Below, piece by piece: positions 4,389-41,263 of a stretch of DNA of 64,000 nt (its first letter is position 1; each line of letters opens with the position of its first letter). The notes below the pieces were generated by a model, which saw only the letters and a list, made by a program, of their open reading frames with translations, was not told where the DNA came from and made no database searches. Source of the stretch: Qipengyuania spongiae. Lineage in GTDB: Bacteria > Pseudomonadota > Alphaproteobacteria > Sphingomonadales > Sphingomonadaceae. The position numbers and the translations under genes are program-made. The stretch is from NCBI RefSeq assembly GCF_026168555.1, contig NZ_CP092471.1:1932501-1996500 (forward strand), in the 5' to 3' direction.

Positions 4389-4802
4389 TCAGGCGTCTAC
4401 GCCCTTGACCTTTCCCCACTGGCGCGCTGCCGTGTAGCCGAGATAACCCGTGCCAAAGAGCGCGTAGAGCGCTTCGGGCAGGGCGGCGAGATAGCTGGTC
4501 ATGCCATCACCGATCGCGCGCGCGGTGACAGGGTCGAAGGCCGCAATCACGCCCATCGGAACGGAGAACAGAATCAGCGCGTACATGACGTAAAGGAAGC
4601 TGGGGCGGGCACGGCTTGTCCAGGGATCGACTGCCTGCGCCTCGGCGACGATCGCAGAAAGGTGGGCCTCCACAAGCTTGAGTTCGTGCGTTCCCTCCAG
4701 TTCGAGCAGCGCGAGCTTGGCTTTGGCGCGCGCTTCGCGGTCCGGAATGATCTTGTCGATGATCGAGGCGATGGGTCCGATCAACGAATCGACGATAGCC
4801 AT
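4389..4802 (-). CDS. GTA-type three-transmembrane holin (PF11351-like)
   Basis: 137 residues. The ATG at 4802 is preceded by AGGAG at 7 nt; a more upstream ATG has no such site. An amphipathic N-terminal region (SIIDKIIPDREARAKAK) is followed by the WTSRARPSFLYVMYAL membrane segment. Two further hydrophobic stretches end in ALFGTGYLGYTAARQW. This pattern matches my recollection of the family 'holin of 3TMs, for gene-transfer release', the holin of Rhodobacter-type gene transfer agents. No endolysin or phage structural gene is nearby. A dyad in its promoter matches one at the XRE/DUF6456 locus. The family call is recalled, not searched. Confidence 0.75.
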   Translation of the reverse strand: MAIVDSLIGPIASIIDKIIPDREARAKAKLALLELEGTHELKLVEAHLSAIVAEAQAVDPWTSRARPSFLYVMYALILFSVPMGVIAAFDPVTARAIGDGMTSYLAALPEALYALFGTGYLGYTAARQWGKVKGVDA

Positions 4803-4830
4803 GGCAGTTCTCCTGATGAACCGCACAAGC

Positions 4831-4845
4831 TAACCAGATCGGTTA
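4831..4845 (-). promoter_or_regulatory. Operator-like dyad upstream of the holin gene
   Basis: Read on the minus strand this is TAACCGATCTGGTTA, with arms TAACC/GGTTA and a 5-nt centre. It lies 29-43 bp upstream of the holin ATG, just past a CTATAT sequence (about 4855) that could be the -10. The same 14-mer with one change occurs at 9985-9998. Binding by the XRE regulator is inferred. Confidence 0.5.
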
Positions 4846-4862
4846 AAGTAGGAAATATAGAA

Positions 4863-4881
4863 CGATCCGCCGAGCGGATCG
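4863..4881 (-). terminator. Probable tRNA-Pro terminator
   Basis: On the minus strand, CGATCCGC-TCG-GCGGATCG forms a perfect 8-bp stem followed by TTCTATATTT. It lies 36 bp after the tRNA-Pro CCA end and just upstream of the holin promoter. The T-run is interrupted, so efficiency is uncertain. Confidence 0.5.
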
Positions 4882-4916
4882 AGCTGCGAAGTCCTACGCT
4901 GCAAGGGTATTTCCAC

Positions 4917-4993
4917 TGGTCGGGACGACAGGATTCGAACCTGCGACCCCCACACCCCCAGTGTGATGCGCTACCAGGCTGCGCTACGTCCCG
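4917..4993 (-). tRNA. tRNA-Pro (anticodon GGG)
   Basis: 77 nt including the encoded CCA. On the minus strand the acceptor CGGGACG pairs with CGTCCCG, the D arm reads GCGCAGCCTGGTAGCGC, the anticodon stem TCACA/TGTGG encloses loop CTGGGGG, and the T arm has GGTTCGAATCC. The discriminator is A. The anticodon in the loop is GGG, so it reads CCC and CCU proline codons. Confidence 0.97.
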
Positions 4994-5219
4994 ATCCAGT
5001 GGAGGCCGGCCCTATAGGCACGGTCCTGGCTCATGGCAAGCGATGTGAAGCGATCGACCGGTGCGATCGGCCTGTACCGCGCAATTCATTGCCCCGCTCC
5101 CTCATTGCTGCTAGGCGCGCGCGGCTCTACCGGCGATGGGAGGATCGCATGGTGCCGCTACCCATGCGGCGCGGCCATTCCCTCTCGCTTCAACTCGGAT
5201 TTCTGGATCGTTTAACCCA

Positions 5220-5543
5220 ATGCTCGATATTCTCGCTGCCGCATCCGGCGCCGCGCCGCCCCCTTCGTGGATCAGCTGGCTGCCGATCGTCGGTATGATC
5301 GCGATCTTCTGGTTTCTCATCATCCGCCCGCAGATGCGACAGCAGAAGGCGCATCAGGAAAAGGTCTCCAATCTCAAGCGCGGCGACCAGGTGGTTACCG
5401 CCGGCGGTCTCGTCGGCAAGATCACGAAGGTCGAGGACGATTACGTCCATGTCGAACTCGCCAAGGGCGTTGTGGTGAAGGCGGTCCGCAGCACGATCGG
5501 GGACGTCGTGCCGCCGGCCGGAGCCCAGCCCGCGAACGACTGA
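5220..5543 (+). CDS. yajC: Preprotein translocase subunit YajC
   Basis: 107 residues from the ATG at 5220. A short N-terminal segment precedes one membrane helix (WLPIVGMIAIFWFLIIRPQ), whose FFLIIRPQ-like end is the YajC hallmark. A cytoplasmic domain follows with LKRGDQVVTAGGLVGKI. YajC joins SecDF and YidC around SecYEG. It stands 32 bp upstream of secD in a typical yajC-secD-secF operon. The 225 bp before it, back to tRNA-Pro, show no gene and no clear promoter. Confidence 0.95.
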   Translation: MLDILAAASGAAPPPSWISWLPIVGMIAIFWFLIIRPQMRQQKAHQEKVSNLKRGDQVVTAGGLVGKITKVEDDYVHVELAKGVVVKAVRSTIGDVVPPAGAQPAND

Positions 5544-5575
5544 CACGGCCCGCTATCTAGAGGCGACCTACCCAA

Positions 5576-7174
5576 ATGCTCGACTTTCCGACCTGGAAGA
5601 AAACCTGGCTCTGGCTGATAACCGCCATCGCCATATTCGCGGCCCTGCCATCGATCTTTTCGCTTTCGGGACAGCGCTGGCCCTCTGCATTGCCCGATCA
5701 GACTGTCAATCTCGGTCTCGACCTTGCCGGCGGCAGTCATATCCTGCTCGAGGCCGAAGTGTCGCAGGTGGCGACGCAGCGGCTGGAGAACATGGAAGAG
5801 GCGGTGCGCGGCGCGATGCGTCAGGCCGAACCGCGCATCCGTATCGGCGATGTGTCGACCGCGAATGGTCGTCTCAGCTTCATGCTCGACGATCCCGCCG
5901 ATATCGATCGGGCGCGCGAATTGCTTCTGCCACTGGTGAACGGCACGGGCCTCACCCGCGAATGGGATCTACAGGTGGTCGACGGCAATCGCGTCGTCCT
6001 CAGCCAGACGCAGGCCGGGCTCGACCAGGCAGTCAACGACGCGATGGACAGCGCAACCGAAGTCGTGCGCAAGCGCATCGACGCGCTCGGCACGCGCGAG
6101 CCGACGATCATCCGTCAGAGCGACACCCGCATCGTGGTTCAGGTGCCCGGGCTGGAGGATCCCGACGCGTTGAAGGAACTGCTGGGCCAGACCGCGCGGC
6201 TCGAATTCAAGCTGGTGGACGAGACCGCTCTCCCGAGCGACGTCGCGGAAGGCCGTGCCCCCCCGGGTAGCGAGATCGTGCCGTTCGCCGAAGGAAGCTC
6301 CGGCGAAGGTCAGTCCCTCGCGGTCCGGCGCCTGGGTGGCATTCGCGGTGACAATCTGGTCGGCGCGCAGCAGAGCTTCGATCCGCAGACAAACGAGCCG
6401 GTCGTTTCCATCACCTTCGACCAGCAGGGCGGAGCTCGATTCGCCCAGCTCACCACCGAGAACGTTCAGAAGCCCTTCGCCATCATTCTCGACGGCAAGG
6501 TGCTTTCGGCTCCGAACATAAACGAGCCGATCCTGGGCGGAACCGCGCAGATTTCAGGCGGGTTCACGGTGGATACGGCCAACAACCTCGCGATCTCGCT
6601 ACGTTCCGGCGCGCTGCCCATCGATCTCGCGGTGGTCGAGGAACGCACGGTCGGACCCGATCTCGGTGCGGATTCGATCCGCAAGGGCATTATCGCAATG
6701 GCGATCGGCTCGCTGGCCGTCGTCGTCCTGATGATCGCGACCTACGGCCGCTTCGGCGTCTATGCGACGATCGCTCTCGTCATCAACGTGCTGATGATCC
6801 TCGGCATCATGGCGGTTCTCAACTCCACCCTGACCCTGCCGGGCATTGCAGGTTTCGTTCTGACGATCGGTGCGGCGGTGGACGCGAATGTCCTCATCAA
6901 CGAACGCATTCGCGAAGAACGAAAACGTGGACGACGCGTCATCGCGGCAGTGGAGAACGGCTACAGCGAAGCCAGCCGCGCGATCTATGACGCCAATATC
7001 ACGAACTTCATTGCCGGCGTTCTGCTGTTCCTGTTCGGATCCGGCCCGGTTCGCGGCTTTGCGGTGGTGCTGGTGATCGGACTGTTCACCAGCGTGTTCA
7101 CCGCCGTCACGCTCACCCGGATGTGGGTGGCGGGATGGCTGCGCAAGACGAAACCAAAAGACATTCTTCTCTAA
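5576..7174 (+). CDS. secD: Protein translocase subunit SecD
   Basis: 532 residues. It has an N-terminal membrane helix, a large periplasmic P1 domain (LGLDLAGGSHILLE at its start, then repeated VVRKRIDALGTREPTI-type segments), and five C-terminal helices starting near residue 360. IAGFVLTIGAAVDANVLINERI is the conserved RND-like helix 4 with the Asp used in proton-driven translocation. With SecF it pulls exported proteins into the periplasm at the expense of the proton gradient. It lies between yajC and secF. Confidence 0.97.
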   Translation: MLDFPTWKKTWLWLITAIAIFAALPSIFSLSGQRWPSALPDQTVNLGLDLAGGSHILLEAEVSQVATQRLENMEEAVRGAMRQAEPRIRIGDVSTANGRLSFMLDDPADIDRARELLLPLVNGTGLTREWDLQVVDGNRVVLSQTQAGLDQAVNDAMDSATEVVRKRIDALGTREPTIIRQSDTRIVVQVPGLEDPDALKELLGQTARLEFKLVDETALPSDVAEGRAPPGSEIVPFAEGSSGEGQSLAVRRLGGIRGDNLVGAQQSFDPQTNEPVVSITFDQQGGARFAQLTTENVQKPFAIILDGKVLSAPNINEPILGGTAQISGGFTVDTANNLAISLRSGALPIDLAVVEERTVGPDLGADSIRKGIIAMAIGSLAVVVLMIATYGRFGVYATIALVINVLMILGIMAVLNSTLTLPGIAGFVLTIGAAVDANVLINERIREERKRGRRVIAAVENGYSEASRAIYDANITNFIAGVLLFLFGSGPVRGFAVVLVIGLFTSVFTAVTLTRMWVAGWLRKTKPKDILL

Positions 7175-7188
7175 AGGAGGCGAGACCG

Positions 7189-8169
7189 ATGAAACTGCTC
7201 AAGCTCGTCCCCGACGACACCAATCTTAAATTCCTGAAATACCGGATTCCGTTCTTCGTGGTCAGTATGATCCTGATCGCGGCGAGCTGGGCGCTGGTCT
7301 TCACTAAGGGGCTGAATTACGGAGTCGATTTCGCCGGCGGACAGGAAATCCGCGCGACTTTCGTCGGGGATGCGGAAGCGCCGGTGGCCGAAGTGCGCGA
7401 GAATGTGGCCGCGCTGCCGACGGTCGAGAACCCGACCATCCAGCGGTTCGGCGAAGCGAACCAGGTGTCGATCCGGATCAAGCTGCCGCCCGAAGCGGAA
7501 GGCGACAAGGAATTCGCCGACCGTATGACGGAAAGCATCACCGACGCCTTGCGCGAAGGTCATCCCAACGTCCGGATCGATGGGGTGGACTCGGTTTCCG
7601 GCAAGGTCTCGGGAGAATTCCGCAGCGATGCGACTCTTGCCCTGATTGCCGCGATGCTGGCCGTCGCACTTTACATCTGGATACGGTTCGAATGGCAGTT
7701 CGGCGCGAGCGGACTGTTCGCGCTGTTCCACGACGTGTCTCTGGCTCTGGGCATGTTCGCGTTGTTCCAGATGGAATTCAGCCTGCAGACCATCGCGGCG
7801 ATCCTGGCGATCATCGGATATTCGCTGAACGATACGATCGTAGTCTACGATCGCATCCGCGAAAACCTGAAGAAATACCGCAAGATGCCGTTGCCCGAAT
7901 TGCTCGACCTTTCGGTCAACGAGACGCTCGCGCGCACTGTGATGACCTCGCTGACCCTGCTGGTGGCGCTCATCCCGCTGCTCCTGTTCGGTCCGGAAAG
8001 CCTGTTCGGCCTGACCGCGGCTATCACGCTGGGCATTTTCGTAGGTACTTACAGCTCGATCTACATGGCCGCGCCGATTCTTGTCTGGCTCGGGGTGACG
8101 TCCAAGAGCTTCGTGCCCCAGGAAAGCGAGATCGATCGCCAGGAACGACGCGCGCGCGGCGAAGTCTGA
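7189..8169 (+). CDS. secF: Protein translocase subunit SecF
   Basis: 326 residues from the ATG at 7189, which has a strong AAAGGAGG 8 nt upstream; the longer upstream frame is ignored. The first helix leads into NYGVDFAGGQEIRATF. A short periplasmic domain follows, then five helices with AAILAIIGYSLNDTIVVYDRIREN, the SecF signature. It ends 24 bp before the stop of the convergent glycosyltransferase. A 7-bp inverted repeat (GCCGAAC/GTTCGGC, 8183-8204) lies between the two genes without a T-run. Confidence 0.97.
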   Translation: MKLLKLVPDDTNLKFLKYRIPFFVVSMILIAASWALVFTKGLNYGVDFAGGQEIRATFVGDAEAPVAEVRENVAALPTVENPTIQRFGEANQVSIRIKLPPEAEGDKEFADRMTESITDALREGHPNVRIDGVDSVSGKVSGEFRSDATLALIAAMLAVALYIWIRFEWQFGASGLFALFHDVSLALGMFALFQMEFSLQTIAAILAIIGYSLNDTIVVYDRIRENLKKYRKMPLPELLDLSVNETLARTVMTSLTLLVALIPLLLFGPESLFGLTAAITLGIFVGTYSSIYMAAPILVWLGVTSKSFVPQESEIDRQERRARGEV

Positions 8170-8193
8170 GCGTTTGGCAGGAGCCGAACGGGT

Positions 8194-9399
8194 TTAGGTT
8201 CGGCCGGATACGATCCGGTCGTAATGACGGCCGAGAGCGCGGCCGTTGGCGACCCAATCGAAACGGTTGGCCCTGGCAGCGACCGTCAGCGCATCACGAC
8301 TCTTTTCGAGCACCAGCCTGATGCCCCGCGCAATGGCGTCAGCATCCCGCGTCACGATGACGCCCGCACTCGGCCCGGTCACCACCTCGCGCGCGCCGCC
8401 GGCATCGGTGATGACGAGCGGCGTGCCGCAGGCGAGAGCTTCGATCCAGGCATTGGCAAGCCCTTCGCTGGCCGAGGGAAGCACCATCACATCGGCTGCC
8501 GACAGGATCGGGGGGAGAACATCGTGGTCGACCGAGCCGAGGAAATGCACTCGGTCGGCAACGCCCTCATCGGCAGCGAGCTGTCGCAGTCGACCTTCAT
8601 CGGGTCCTTGGCCTATCAGCAGGAGGCGCGCGCGGGGCAGGGTGGCGAGTGCGCGGATCACGAGTTCCTGACCCTTGCGCGGGATGAGCGCGCCGACCGT
8701 TGCCAGCAAGTGCTCGTCGCGCGCCAGCGGAAAGCCGAGTTCGGCTGAAAGGCACGCGCGCAAGCTAGTGTGCCCGAGCGGCCTGAACCGGTCGCGATCA
8801 AGGCCGGTGTAATGGACGGTGATCTTGTCGCGCGGCATACCGATCACGGCCATGTCGTCCGCCAGAGCCCCACAGACCGCGAGCAGTCCACCAGCCTGCT
8901 GCGCCGCAGCGATCATCATCCGGCGAGAGTAGGGCTTGGCGCCCCAAAGGTGAATGTCCCCGCCGCGTGCCTTAATCGAGACCGGGAGATCGAGTGCGCG
9001 CCCGATCTCCGCCACCGCCGGGCCGTCCGGCCAGAAGAACTGGGCGTCCACCAGATCGAACGGCTTTTCGGCATGGAGGCGGCGGGCAAGCGACAGGACG
9101 GCGCTGACAATAGCGCCGGGATTTAGGCGTGCGCCGACAGAGGGTATCAGGCGAAAGGTCGGTCGGTGAACGGCAATGCCTTCCTCTGAGCCGCTCGTCG
9201 CGGCGCCGGCGAGCGCCCGGTACTTCCCGAAAGCGATCGGAGGCAGGCCGATCGGATTGACGACTACCGGCTCCCACTCCGTCTCCTGCTGCAAGGCTCG
9301 GATCGAGCTTTCGACGAAAGTGCCGAAGCGCGGCTGCGCGGCATTGGGCCATAGCGTCGAGATGATCAGCACCCGCCGCTTTTTCGCAGGCGTACTCAC
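8194..9399 (-). CDS. Glycosyltransferase family 4
   Basis: 401 residues from a GTG whose GTGA overlaps the TGA of the upstream XRE gene. The N-terminus (RRVLIISTLWPNAAQPRFG) and the donor-site EX7E motif in EGLANAWIEALACGTPLVI define a GT4 enzyme. IPRKGQELVIRAL is the usual interdomain segment. The same frame stays open far upstream, through the XRE gene, but this is a high-GC artefact. The substrate is unknown. Translational coupling to a transcription factor is odd for a glycan enzyme and may be incidental. Confidence 0.8.
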   Translation of the reverse strand: MSTPAKKRRVLIISTLWPNAAQPRFGTFVESSIRALQQETEWEPVVVNPIGLPPIAFGKYRALAGAATSGSEEGIAVHRPTFRLIPSVGARLNPGAIVSAVLSLARRLHAEKPFDLVDAQFFWPDGPAVAEIGRALDLPVSIKARGGDIHLWGAKPYSRRMMIAAAQQAGGLLAVCGALADDMAVIGMPRDKITVHYTGLDRDRFRPLGHTSLRACLSAELGFPLARDEHLLATVGALIPRKGQELVIRALATLPRARLLLIGQGPDEGRLRQLAADEGVADRVHFLGSVDHDVLPPILSAADVMVLPSASEGLANAWIEALACGTPLVITDAGGAREVVTGPSAGVIVTRDADAIARGIRLVLEKSRDALTVAARANRFDWVANGRALGRHYDRIVSGRT

Positions 9400-9968
9400 A
9401 GTCGGCGGATCAGCATCTCGGCAACGGCGATCCAGGCGGGATCGCGCACCACGTCCTGCTTCTGGCCGTGGCCCGGCGGCAATATCCCGACGAGGTCGCC
9501 GCGCCGGTCGATCAGCCGGCCGAAGGCGAAGCGTCCGCCTTTTCGCGACACGAGAACGTCGCGGTTGAGCGCGCGGCTTGTATCCTCCACGGCTACTTGG
9601 CGCAGCCAGAGCTGGTCGCCGGGACGGTATTCGCCGTGCGGGTAATCGACCGTCATCACCAGCAGCGCGCCGTCGCCACCGAGATCGGTAGCCAAAATCG
9701 CGTCGCGGGTGTCCGCAAGCGGCTGCGCACCGCCTTGCGCAAGCGTCGCCACGATCTGCGGCTGCGCGGTCTTCTCCGACCGCACCAGCAGCTCGGGATC
9801 GACGTCGAGCGCGGCGGCGATCCGTTCCATCCATCTGAGCGAGAGGTTGCGCATTCCCGTTTCCAGCCGCCCTACCGTCTGCGGCGTGGTTGGGGGATCG
9901 CAAGCCTCGGCCAGGTCGGCGAGTGTCCAGCCTTTCTGCCTGCGAATATCGCGGATGCGGTTGATCAT
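9396..9968 (-). CDS. XRE-family regulator with S24-like C-terminal domain
   Basis: 190 residues. Residues 1-57 form a Cro/CI helix-turn-helix (RRQKGWTLADLAEACDPPTT...VGRLETG). The C-terminal half (GALLVMTVDYPHGEYRPGDQ...) resembles the S24/LexA-like beta fold, but I see no convincing Ser-Lys protease pair, so self-cleavage is unlikely. It is divergent from a DUF6456 gene. Its probable promoter (TTGGAC at 10014-10019; -10 about 9990-9996) overlaps the dyad at 9985-9998, which suggests autorepression. Because the dyad recurs at the GTA-type holin, a role like the GTA repressor RogA of Caulobacter is possible, but that is inference. Confidence 0.8.
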   Translation of the reverse strand: MINRIRDIRRQKGWTLADLAEACDPPTTPQTVGRLETGMRNLSLRWMERIAAALDVDPELLVRSEKTAQPQIVATLAQGGAQPLADTRDAILATDLGGDGALLVMTVDYPHGEYRPGDQLWLRQVAVEDTSRALNRDVLVSRKGGRFAFGRLIDRRGDLVGILPPGHGQKQDVVRDPAWIAVAEMLIRRL

Positions 9969-9984
9969 CTCGGTGCCTGTCGAA

Positions 9985-9998
9985 TAACCATATCGGTT
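9985..9998 (-). promoter_or_regulatory. Operator-like dyad between XRE and DUF6456 genes
   Basis: On the minus strand this reads AACCGATATGGTTA. It is 17-30 bp upstream of the XRE start codon and coincides with that gene's predicted -10. It could also cover the -10 of the divergent DUF6456 gene (TTGATC at 9961, 17-bp spacer). It differs at one base from the site at 4831-4845 upstream of the holin gene. Confidence 0.5.
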
Positions 9999-10059
9999 TT
10001 TTCTTTCCTACAGGTCCAACCATTTTGCAAGCATGGGGAATGCAGCGAAAGGGAATCGG

Positions 10060-10527
10060 ATGAAACGCAGGCTGGTGGAACGTGAATTGACCGGAGAAGG
10101 CCCGCTTCGGGGGTCCGCGGCCAAGCCTCGCAGGCGGAGCGTCACGGTAAATGTCGCCGAGTCGCCGCTCTCCTGGCTCCATGCGCGGGGTCATCTCGAG
10201 GACCGGCTTTTCGATGCGGGCGAGCGCCTTCGCTCTGATTACGAGCGCGCACAGATGGCCCCTTCGATTACCATGCGCTGGGATCCGGTCCGCGCCCGGA
10301 CCACCGGCGACGGTCTGGCGCCATCGGAACGTCAGCTTGCCGCCAAGGCGCGGTTCGACGGCGCGATGGCGGAGGCGGGCCGGGGGCTGGAGGACGTACT
10401 GTGGCGCGTGGTCTGCGCCTGCGAGAGCCTTCCAGACGCCGAAAAGGCGCTTCAATGGCCGGCTCGCAGCGGCAAGCTGGTCCTGCGTCTGGCTCTGGAC
10501 CGTGTGGCGGATTTCTACCGCTTGTGA
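10060..10527 (+). CDS. DUF6456 domain protein (possible GafA/GafZ-like GTA regulator)
   Basis: 155 residues from the ATG at 10060, which has AGGGA 6 nt upstream; an in-frame ATG at 10033 lacks a ribosome binding site. A basic N-terminus precedes the conserved SPLSWLHARGH motif, an RLRSDYERAQM helix, and a C-terminal GLEDVLWRVVCACESL...ALDRVADFY region. I recognise this as the alphaproteobacterial DUF6456 family. I recall that it corresponds to the C-terminal part of GafA, the gene-transfer-agent activator that contacts RNA polymerase. The DNA-binding partner domain is not present here. It is divergent from the XRE regulator over the shared operator. Confidence 0.65.
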   Translation: MKRRLVERELTGEGPLRGSAAKPRRRSVTVNVAESPLSWLHARGHLEDRLFDAGERLRSDYERAQMAPSITMRWDPVRARTTGDGLAPSERQLAAKARFDGAMAEAGRGLEDVLWRVVCACESLPDAEKALQWPARSGKLVLRLALDRVADFYRL

Positions 10528-40084: not shown

Positions 40085-41263
40085 TTGGACGGTTCGATAC
40101 CCTTCTGGATGTACATCATCGGCTTCCCGCTGCTGCTGGGGCCGCTGGTGACGTTGCACGAACTGGGTCACTATCTCGTAGGGCGCTGGTTCGGCGTCGG
40201 CGCCAAGGCCTTTTCCATCGGTTTCGGCAAGGAAATCGCCGGCTGGACCGACAGCCGCGGCACGCGCTGGAAGCTCTCCGCCCTGCCGCTCGGCGGCTAT
40301 GTCCAGTTCAAGGGCGACATGAACCCTGCGAGCGTTCCGCAACAGCAGAGTGCGGTCGAGGATGCCAATTTCGGCGTCGCGACCGAAGCGGACCTTGCCG
40401 AGGCAGAGGATCGGGCGGTCGTGGGCGCCCCGTTCCATCAGGCCGATCTGTGGAAGCGAGCGCTGATCGTCTTCGCCGGTCCGGCGATGAATATCCTGAT
40501 CACGCTGGCGATCTTCGCGGCTTTCTTCTCGATCCTCGGTCGGCCCGTGACGGCCGATCCGGAGGGGACCAATGTCGTTCAGAGCTTCGCCGAGAACTCG
40601 GTGGCCGAGGCGGCAGGAATCGAGGCGGGCGACCGCATCGTCGCCATCGACGGCGCGCCGGTGCGCGAATTCGGCGACATTACCGACCGGGTGGTCATGT
40701 ATCCCGGCAAGGACATCATCCTGTCGGTCGAGCGCGACGGCGCGCGGCGGACGGTGCCCGTGACGATCGGCGAGAGCGTGGAGACCGACCGCTTCGGCAA
40801 CAGCTCCAAGGTGGGGCGGCTGGGAATATACTCCTCGCCCTTCGAATGGGAACGGGTGGGCGTGCTCTCGTCCATCCCGCTCGCGGCCGAGCAGAGCGTC
40901 AACATGATGCGCATGATGATCGTCGGCATCAAGCAGATCCTGATCGGCGACCGTTCGGTCCGCGAGCTGGGCGGACCGGTCAAGATCGCCAAGTTCTCGG
41001 GCGAGCAGTTGAGCCTCGGTCCCATCGCCTTCGTCAATTTCGTGGCGTTGATCTCGCTTAACTTGGCATTCATCAACCTGCTGCCAATTCCCGCCCTCGA
41101 CGGCGGGCACCTGGCTTTCTACGCGGCTGAAGCGGTCCGCCGGAAGCCCGTGGGCCCGCGCGGTCAGGAGGTGGCGTATCGCACCGGCATGGCGCTTGTC
41201 CTGATGCTGATGATATTCGTCACGATAAACGATCTGGTCAGCCTGCCGATCTTCGGAAGCTGA
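40085..41263 (+). CDS. rseP: RIP zinc metalloprotease RseP (site-2 protease)
   Basis: 392 residues if started at TTG 40085, which has GGAG about 10 nt upstream; the first ATG (40109) lacks such a site and leaves only 16 residues before the active site. HELGH in the first helix binds zinc, and NLLPIPALDGGH in the third provides the Asp ligand. One PDZ domain (about residues 150-240: ENSVAEAAGIEAGDRIVAIDG) lies in the periplasm. It cleaves anti-sigma factors or signal-peptide remnants in the membrane. The TTG start is a judgement. Confidence 0.93.
   Translation: MDGSIPFWMYIIGFPLLLGPLVTLHELGHYLVGRWFGVGAKAFSIGFGKEIAGWTDSRGTRWKLSALPLGGYVQFKGDMNPASVPQQQSAVEDANFGVATEADLAEAEDRAVVGAPFHQADLWKRALIVFAGPAMNILITLAIFAAFFSILGRPVTADPEGTNVVQSFAENSVAEAAGIEAGDRIVAIDGAPVREFGDITDRVVMYPGKDIILSVERDGARRTVPVTIGESVETDRFGNSSKVGRLGIYSSPFEWERVGVLSSIPLAAEQSVNMMRMMIVGIKQILIGDRSVRELGGPVKIAKFSGEQLSLGPIAFVNFVALISLNLAFINLLPIPALDGGHLAFYAAEAVRRKPVGPRGQEVAYRTGMALVLMLMIFVTINDLVSLPIFGS

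Follow-up and report, generated by a model that had tools for sequence, protein, structure and literature searches.

Control of gene transfer agents (GTAs) has been worked out chiefly in Rhodobacter and Caulobacter. In Caulobacter crescentus, RogA is described as an XRE-family repressor that binds the gafYZ core promoter with two inverted repeats (PMC9632790), and for Rhodobacter capsulatus the described GafA regulon includes gafA, the GTA cluster and a lysis cassette (PMC6363796). Here, a stretch of 64,000 nucleotides from Qipengyuania spongiae (contig NZ_CP092471.1, positions 1,932,501 to 1,996,500), in the following called the window, was analyzed for a short inverted repeat (dyad), AACC-N5-GGTT, which is found in the promoter of a GTA-type holin gene and again between two divergent genes coding for an XRE-family regulator and a DUF6456 protein. 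The switch is of a known kind, its proposed operator and wiring are new, and the pattern is real, conserved and more general than first reported. Conserved sites are located at the switch and at the holin gene, a conserved variant is located at the GTA promoter, and in other families the XRE/DUF6456 pair is linked to the GTA cluster.

The gafA gene is listed as coding for a DUF6456 protein and as present in 196 of 208 alphaproteobacterial genomes (PMC9765227), GafA homologues are annotated as DUF6456, and R. capsulatus GafA used as a query retrieves DUF6456 proteins (PMC9638019). DUF6456 is thus the published gafA family, and the control locus of an earlier note on this DNA consists of an XRE gene and an adjacent member of this family. 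By analogy, it may be comparable in function to Caulobacter rogA and gafYZ, with which it would share the combination of an XRE repressor and a gaf-family activator; inverted repeats that occur in pairs at the gaf core promoter are a further common feature (PMC9632790, PMC11150451). The structure model of the DUF6456 protein resembles sigma region 4, like GafZ as described (PMC11150451), and more weakly the antiterminator AlpA, a match which is not decisive. The DnaA-like domain described for R. capsulatus GafA was not detected here, and R. capsulatus gafA stands under CtrA and GtaR, with no XRE repressor mentioned beside GafA in the passages drawn on (PMC6363796). The model PF08299, used in the search for a DnaA-IV-like GafY half, gave one match in nearly all genomes of the genus, as expected for DnaA itself, with two matches in G007 and none in G029; a GafY may be too divergent for this model. 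The holin belongs to PF11351 like other GTA lysis genes, but unlike those, which come with an endolysin, it stands alone beside a tRNA-Pro gene. For C. crescentus, the available account reports that no holin-endolysin was found and that lysis proceeds via LypABC (PMC13236601).

The features of the two promoters are as follows, with the -35 and -10 boxes assigned by eye throughout.

4389..4802, minus strand: holin gene, GTA_holin_3TM (PF11351; Pfam E 1.5e-26, 93.8 bits against a cut-off of 24.8; phrog_3427 holin)
4831..4845, no strand: dyad TAACC-N5-GGTTA in the holin promoter, proposed operator (window scan; conserved in relatives)
4848..4855, minus strand: TTTCCTAC element in the -35 position of the holin promoter, aiming at the holin gene (window scan)
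4917..4993, minus strand: tRNA-Pro(ggg), upstream neighbour of the holin promoter
9396..9968, minus strand: XRE-family helix-turn-helix (HTH) regulator of 190 amino acids (PF01381, E 3.9e-11), RogA-like by position and HTH class
9985..9998, no strand: dyad TAACC-N5-GGTT between the XRE and DUF6456 genes, proposed operator (window scan; conserved)
10004..10011, plus strand: TTTCCTAC element aiming at the DUF6456 gene (window scan)
10018..10021, plus strand: AACC 3′ of TTTCCTAC (window sequence against relatives)
10025..10031, plus strand: TTGCAAG element, conserved (window sequence and genus comparison)
10060..10527, plus strand: DUF6456 gene (PF20057, Pfam E 1.4e-40), gafA family

Exact matches to AACCGATMTGGTTA were found on the minus strand at 4831-4844 and 9985-9998, the two places already given in the earlier note. 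The window contains exactly two copies of AACC-N5-GGTT, one in front of the holin gene and one in the XRE/DUF6456 intergenic region, and exactly two of TTTCCTAC, in the same two promoters and nowhere else. With up to two mismatches to AACCGATMTGGTTA, only one further match was found (41227-41240), and 0.12 matches are expected per shuffled window. The absence of a third copy holds for the window but not for the genome, in which a copy with one mismatch is located at C1:2702485, 5′ of a GGDEF gene. In total, the genome contains 20 matches with up to two mismatches compared to 14 for the reversed pattern; those at two mismatches are mostly chance. The gene downstream of C1:2702485 (L003) encodes a seven-transmembrane (7TM) GGDEF diguanylate cyclase.

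The earlier note had assigned both copies the same orientation to the holin and XRE genes. This has to be corrected, as the dyad is nearly symmetric and the directional part common to both promoters in relatives, TTTCCTACA-NN-AACC, aims at the holin and DUF6456 genes and not at the XRE gene. In the window's own genome TTTCCTAC is exact at both promoters, and the bases following it diverge from this composite. AACC follows TTTCCTAC after three bases in relatives and after six in the own genome, and the role of the AACC at 10018..10021 is doubtful due to this shifted register.

Both promoters are conserved in the genus. The XRE and DUF6456 genes, which adjoin each other there, were found in each of the 37 genomes that represent the genus in the relatives set, the own genome included, and the holin gene in 36; the exception, G029, is an assembly in 420 contigs, and in G023 the holin gene is interrupted by a stop codon. 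Within 110 bases of the XRE/DUF6456 region, the best AACC-N5-GGTT match scores 8/8 in 29 of 37 genomes and 7 in the other 8, while the 36 holin promoters score 8 in 24, 7 in 6, 6 in 4 and 5 in 2 cases. Resampled sequence reaches 8/8 in 0.27% (XRE/DUF6456) and 0.17% (holin) of cases. Allowing one mismatch at most, TTTCCTAC can be placed in 35 of the 36 holin promoters and in all 37 XRE/DUF6456 promoters. In a second set, consisting of the best 80 of 104 loci found in named relatives (Qipengyuania, Erythrobacter, Tsuneonella, Pontixanthobacter, Novosphingobium, Citromicrobium, and others), DUF6456 lies opposite in strand to XRE in 80/80 loci and the dyad between them scores 8/8 in 64 and 7/8 in 11. 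The holin dyad scores 8/8 in 36 and 7/8 in 6 of the 45 loci whose stretch holds the holin gene and its upstream region; the other 35 are not judgeable. The species of this set overlap with the genus and family genome set, so that the two are not independent. Conservation of the promoters in relatives, which the earlier note had proposed to compare, is seen in both sets. Furthermore, TTGCAAG (10025-10031), 3′ of TTTCCTAC towards DUF6456, is nearly invariant across the genus.

The pattern is also largely confined to these promoters. Among 41 genus genomes, 33 exact sites of AACCNATNTGGTTA were found, compared to 4 for the reversed pattern. According to coordinates and inspected loci, the holin gene accounts for 14 of them, XRE/DUF6456 for 8, the GTA promoter for 4 and a sucA-like (2-oxoglutarate dehydrogenase-like) gene for 5, and the remaining 2 are in a single genome, G064. 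Together, 26 of the 33 sites are on the three promoters. The sucA-like sites encode INNQIGF in frame in the two that were checked, one of them identified by Pfam; the other three were assigned by the same start of the open reading frame (ORF). For the composite TTTCCTACANNAACC, 51 exact sites were counted, spread over 35 of the 41 genus genomes with a maximum of two per genome (reversed control 2); family-wide, 131 genomes out of 397 and 46 genera out of 96 contain it. The 67 fetched TTTCCTACANNAACC loci, which include a few sites fetched twice, comprise 31 at the holin gene, 25 at XRE/DUF6456 and 11 at neither. Two of these 11 (L165, L166; genus g75) are promoters from which a GH108 endolysin gene, followed by a holin gene, is driven by the same element. 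One (L220) lies 5′ of a g1-like HTH gene and has the dyad, another (L168) lies 5′ of a related gene and lacks it, and the remaining seven (five distinct sites) look like chance. In L220 (G254) and L168 (G418), TTTCCTACANNAACC is located 63-65 bases 5′ of these g1-like genes, a dyad-like site being present at L220 only; the L220 protein, the only one of them that was run, had no Pfam match.

In addition, a variant of the site was identified at the promoter of the GTA structural cluster. Twenty genus loci were examined, namely G036 and the 19 whose capsid match has an E value under 1e-77. A clear common promoter, AACCTATNTGG-N10-TTGACATCGT, with AACCTATNTGG just 5′ of the -35 box, is present in 17 of them; it is degenerate in G004 and was not found within the stretch fetched for G063 and G030. 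The left half AACCTAT is invariant in 17 of 17. In the family, the same pattern (at most two mismatches) occurs in 140 of 397 genomes and 45 of 96 genera, compared to 0 for the reversed control, and in 26 of the 30 loci fetched, g1 and terminase genes lie downstream in the same direction. The spacer of this promoter ends in TTTGGTTAG in loci outside the genus. In 13 of 14 GTA loci, chosen by us, GGTTAG follows TTGACA after 20 bases, and the holin consensus TTTCCT...GGTTAG shows the same 20-base offset, so that a right half site overlaps the presumed -10 box of both the GTA and the holin promoters. In G041 and G047, two genomes of another family, the site at the DUF6456 promoter has the GGCAC ending that is also found at GTA promoters.

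In other families, the XRE and DUF6456 proteins are 31-38% and 39-52% identical, respectively, and their genes are divergent neighbours there as well. In six of six long regions from three families (G050; G051, G039; G041, G058, G047) the order is XRE / DUF6456, g1-like gene, terminase/portal, and a capsid gene 52-56% identical to the Qipengyuania capsid lies downstream in five of the six. Hence DUF6456 is located at the head of the GTA cluster in three other families and is unlinked to it in the own genome. The DUF6456 promoter of other families carries TTTACC-N5-GGTTA over the presumed -35 box and TATAACC-N5-GGTTA over the -10 box, 24-25 bases apart. By eye, these tandem dyads are clear in 5 of 13 order genomes (G037, G042, G044, G050, G055), and at least an AACC-N5-GG core is present in 12, with none in G038. 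The recognition-helix region of the XRE protein, T(A/P/I)QTIGRLE, is common to the 12 genomes with a dyad-like site; in G038 it is altered to TIARLE. On these sequences the simplest history would be a single XRE-controlled GTA operon whose switch, particle cluster and lysis gene became separated in the family, every part carrying some form of the operator.

Based on this, we propose, with slightly better than even confidence, that a GTA switch of the RogA/GafA type uses the dyad as its operator, with XRE as binder and repressor. In growing cells, an XRE dimer would sit on the dyad and repress both the divergent DUF6456 gene and XRE itself, as well as the separately located holin gene and, via the variant site, the promoter of the GTA structural cluster where a GTA is present. 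Loss or inactivation of XRE would lead to production of DUF6456, a presumed activator or antiterminator of the gafA family, which would activate GTA transcription, and the holin gene would be freed from repression at the same time. In this way, one switch probably runs both particle making and cell bursting. In the own genome, the cluster has been deleted to a remnant, and switch, holin and GTA promoter persist without a particle. The binder, the sign of regulation and the signal are what we infer. XRE appears to be the likeliest binder, a choice which we somewhat favour, and DUF6456 is the main rival. The evidence for XRE consists of the tandem dyads on both core-promoter boxes, the analogy to RogA, and the coincidence in G038 of a missing dyad with a changed helix.

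Several observations weigh against this proposal. The C. crescentus RogA repeats are given as GGAA-N4-TTCC, and RogA is reported there to occupy the gafYZ promoter and a single further promoter but neither the GTA cluster nor a lysis gene (PMC9632790). An intact dyad is missing from 12 of 36 genus holin promoters, a full 8/8 dyad is present in only 6 of 13 genomes outside the family, and in the family the reversed TTTCCTACANNAACC pattern gives about 27 matches (counted from the table). No exact TTTCCTACA-NN-AACC composite was found in a scan of the window's own genome. At the GTA promoter, the right half GGTT is present in only 10 of 17 genus loci, the others reading GGCA, GGTA, GGTG or GGCT; in the family it is kept in only 3 of 30 loci, most of which read GGCAC. 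The right half being often lost, the GTA site is a constant variant and not a full dyad. The sites at the GTA cluster and at lysis genes which the earlier note had named as support were found in part: the variant AACCTATNTGG at the GTA promoter and a site at the endolysin-holin promoter of two genomes bear it out, whereas the full dyad at the GTA promoter is in the minority among the family loci. The own genome's GTA-type promoter has GGCA as well. Finally, the position 5′ of the -35 box at the GTA promoter is the usual one of an activator.

These points bear on the strongest alternative, in which the dyad is the site of the gafA-family DUF6456 protein, activating its own gene, the holin gene and the GTA cluster, and XRE binds elsewhere, perhaps at TTTCCTAC. 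R. capsulatus GafA is described as an activator binding its own promoter, the GTA promoter (-10/transcription start region) and the lysis cassette promoter (PMC6363796), which are the same three targets and count against a repressor at the dyad. The site at the GTA cluster lies 5′ of -35 and is asymmetric, and the second element TTTCCTAC is present at gafA and holin and absent from the aligned GTA main promoters. Conversely, the tandem dyads of other families cover both the -35 and -10 boxes of DUF6456, which is the layout of a repressor. The holin dyad lies between a -35-like element and the -10 box and also fits a repressor better, although R. capsulatus GafA binds at -10 too, and the DUF6456 model shows a single sigma-4-like HTH. 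Taken together, binding by DUF6456 is a serious alternative, though the less probable one. The use of the dyad by a global regulator such as CtrA (TTAAC half sites), with only an indirect link to the switch, is improbable: CtrA is reported to bind the R. capsulatus gafA promoter at TTAAC-N6-GTAAC (PMC6363796) and the holin copy in the window reads TTTAACC, but the quoted site is a direct repeat and the dyad an inverted one, and exact sites off the three promoters are few in the genus. That a short motif with two copies in one window is mere chance similarity is practically refuted by the low expectation per window and by its conservation in orthologous promoters of tens of genomes.

The holin start is likelier at the ATG at 4802, from which the homologues align, than at the GTG at 4826, where the longest ORF starts; for DUF6456, the start at 10060 suits homologues of about 155 amino acids, while the longest ORF begins at 10033. 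Close homologues carry names that point to Qipengyuania/Erythrobacter. The XRE protein has an XRE/Cro-CI type HTH at its N-terminus (PF01381). Beyond it, where a C-terminal S24 LexA/CI-like domain lacking catalytic residues, as in RogA, was sought, the Pfam search gave no match and the structure model is of low confidence.

In the own genome, a GTA-type promoter was identified at C1:808323-808353 without mismatch to the pattern (variant AACCTATTTGGCAC). Downstream of it lie an intact small-terminase-like gene (222 codons) and a terminase gene that ends abruptly at RGPQHSHA and is fused to the last GTA gene (DUF2793 family) from about residue 21. The names small terminase, terminase and portal are our assumption from gene order and motifs; among the cluster ORFs, the Pfam runs covered capsid, DUF2793 and g1 alone, with g1 matches below the cut-off. 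No intact terminase-portal-capsid-tail set was found behind this promoter. Genome-wide, where the capsid family alone was searched, two matches were obtained, located in other regions in which the sole match to a GTA-cluster ORF is at 35%. The cluster is therefore a remnant without capsid, and the holin has no GTA to release in this genome, so that the module for GTA release proposed in the earlier note fails here. The terminase/last-gene junction of G028, a different species, is identical down to the codon. This could reflect one old event common to both, deletion on more than one occasion, or transfer of the allele in its deleted form. G011 shows a different deletion junction, only tail-end genes are left in G031, and an HK97 capsid was not found in 16 of 41 genus genomes.

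The XRE, DUF6456 and holin genes show dN/dS values of 0.03-0.21 and purifying selection in 8 of 8 pairs tested (one DUF6456 value missing), including the pair G011-G034, both without a capsid match. A recent GTA loss would look alike, so that a GTA-independent role of switch and holin is only possible. The wider idea that in Sphingomonadales one repressor operator was copied or kept at all parts of a dispersed GTA, and that switch and holin persisted after loss of the particle in several lineages, this one included, kept by selection as a GTA-independent module for programmed lysis, is tentative and rather unlikely. Strong selection on GTA genes is reported for Sphingomonadales (PMC9765227), and no GTA regulatory site described for this order was found in a literature search. 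If the proposal is true, GTA regulation would be predictable from sequence in many species by means of a 13-base operator that marks the switch and the lysis gene and has a variant form at the particle cluster, and the GTA-less genomes raise the question of why a controlled holin is retained without a particle to release.

Further observations were made at GTA-type promoters. A conserved leader around GGAACATCGCGATAGTG was found 3′ of the GTA -10 box in many genera (e.g., L197, L290), which is a candidate antitermination or activator element. In the genus g91, L294-L301 (G332, G362) comprise four and five GTA-type promoter matches per genome, 5′ of apparently unrelated genes, one of which encodes an Exo_endo_phos protein; this is possibly an enlarged GTA regulon, and both genomes are <80% complete. 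Finally, in L264, L277, and L283 (G257, G398, G345; different genera), a transposase gene replaces g1 after the GTA-type promoter at the same position. The L264 transposase is of the IS1595/ISXO2 type according to Pfam, and those of L277 and L283 were assigned to it by the same protein start.

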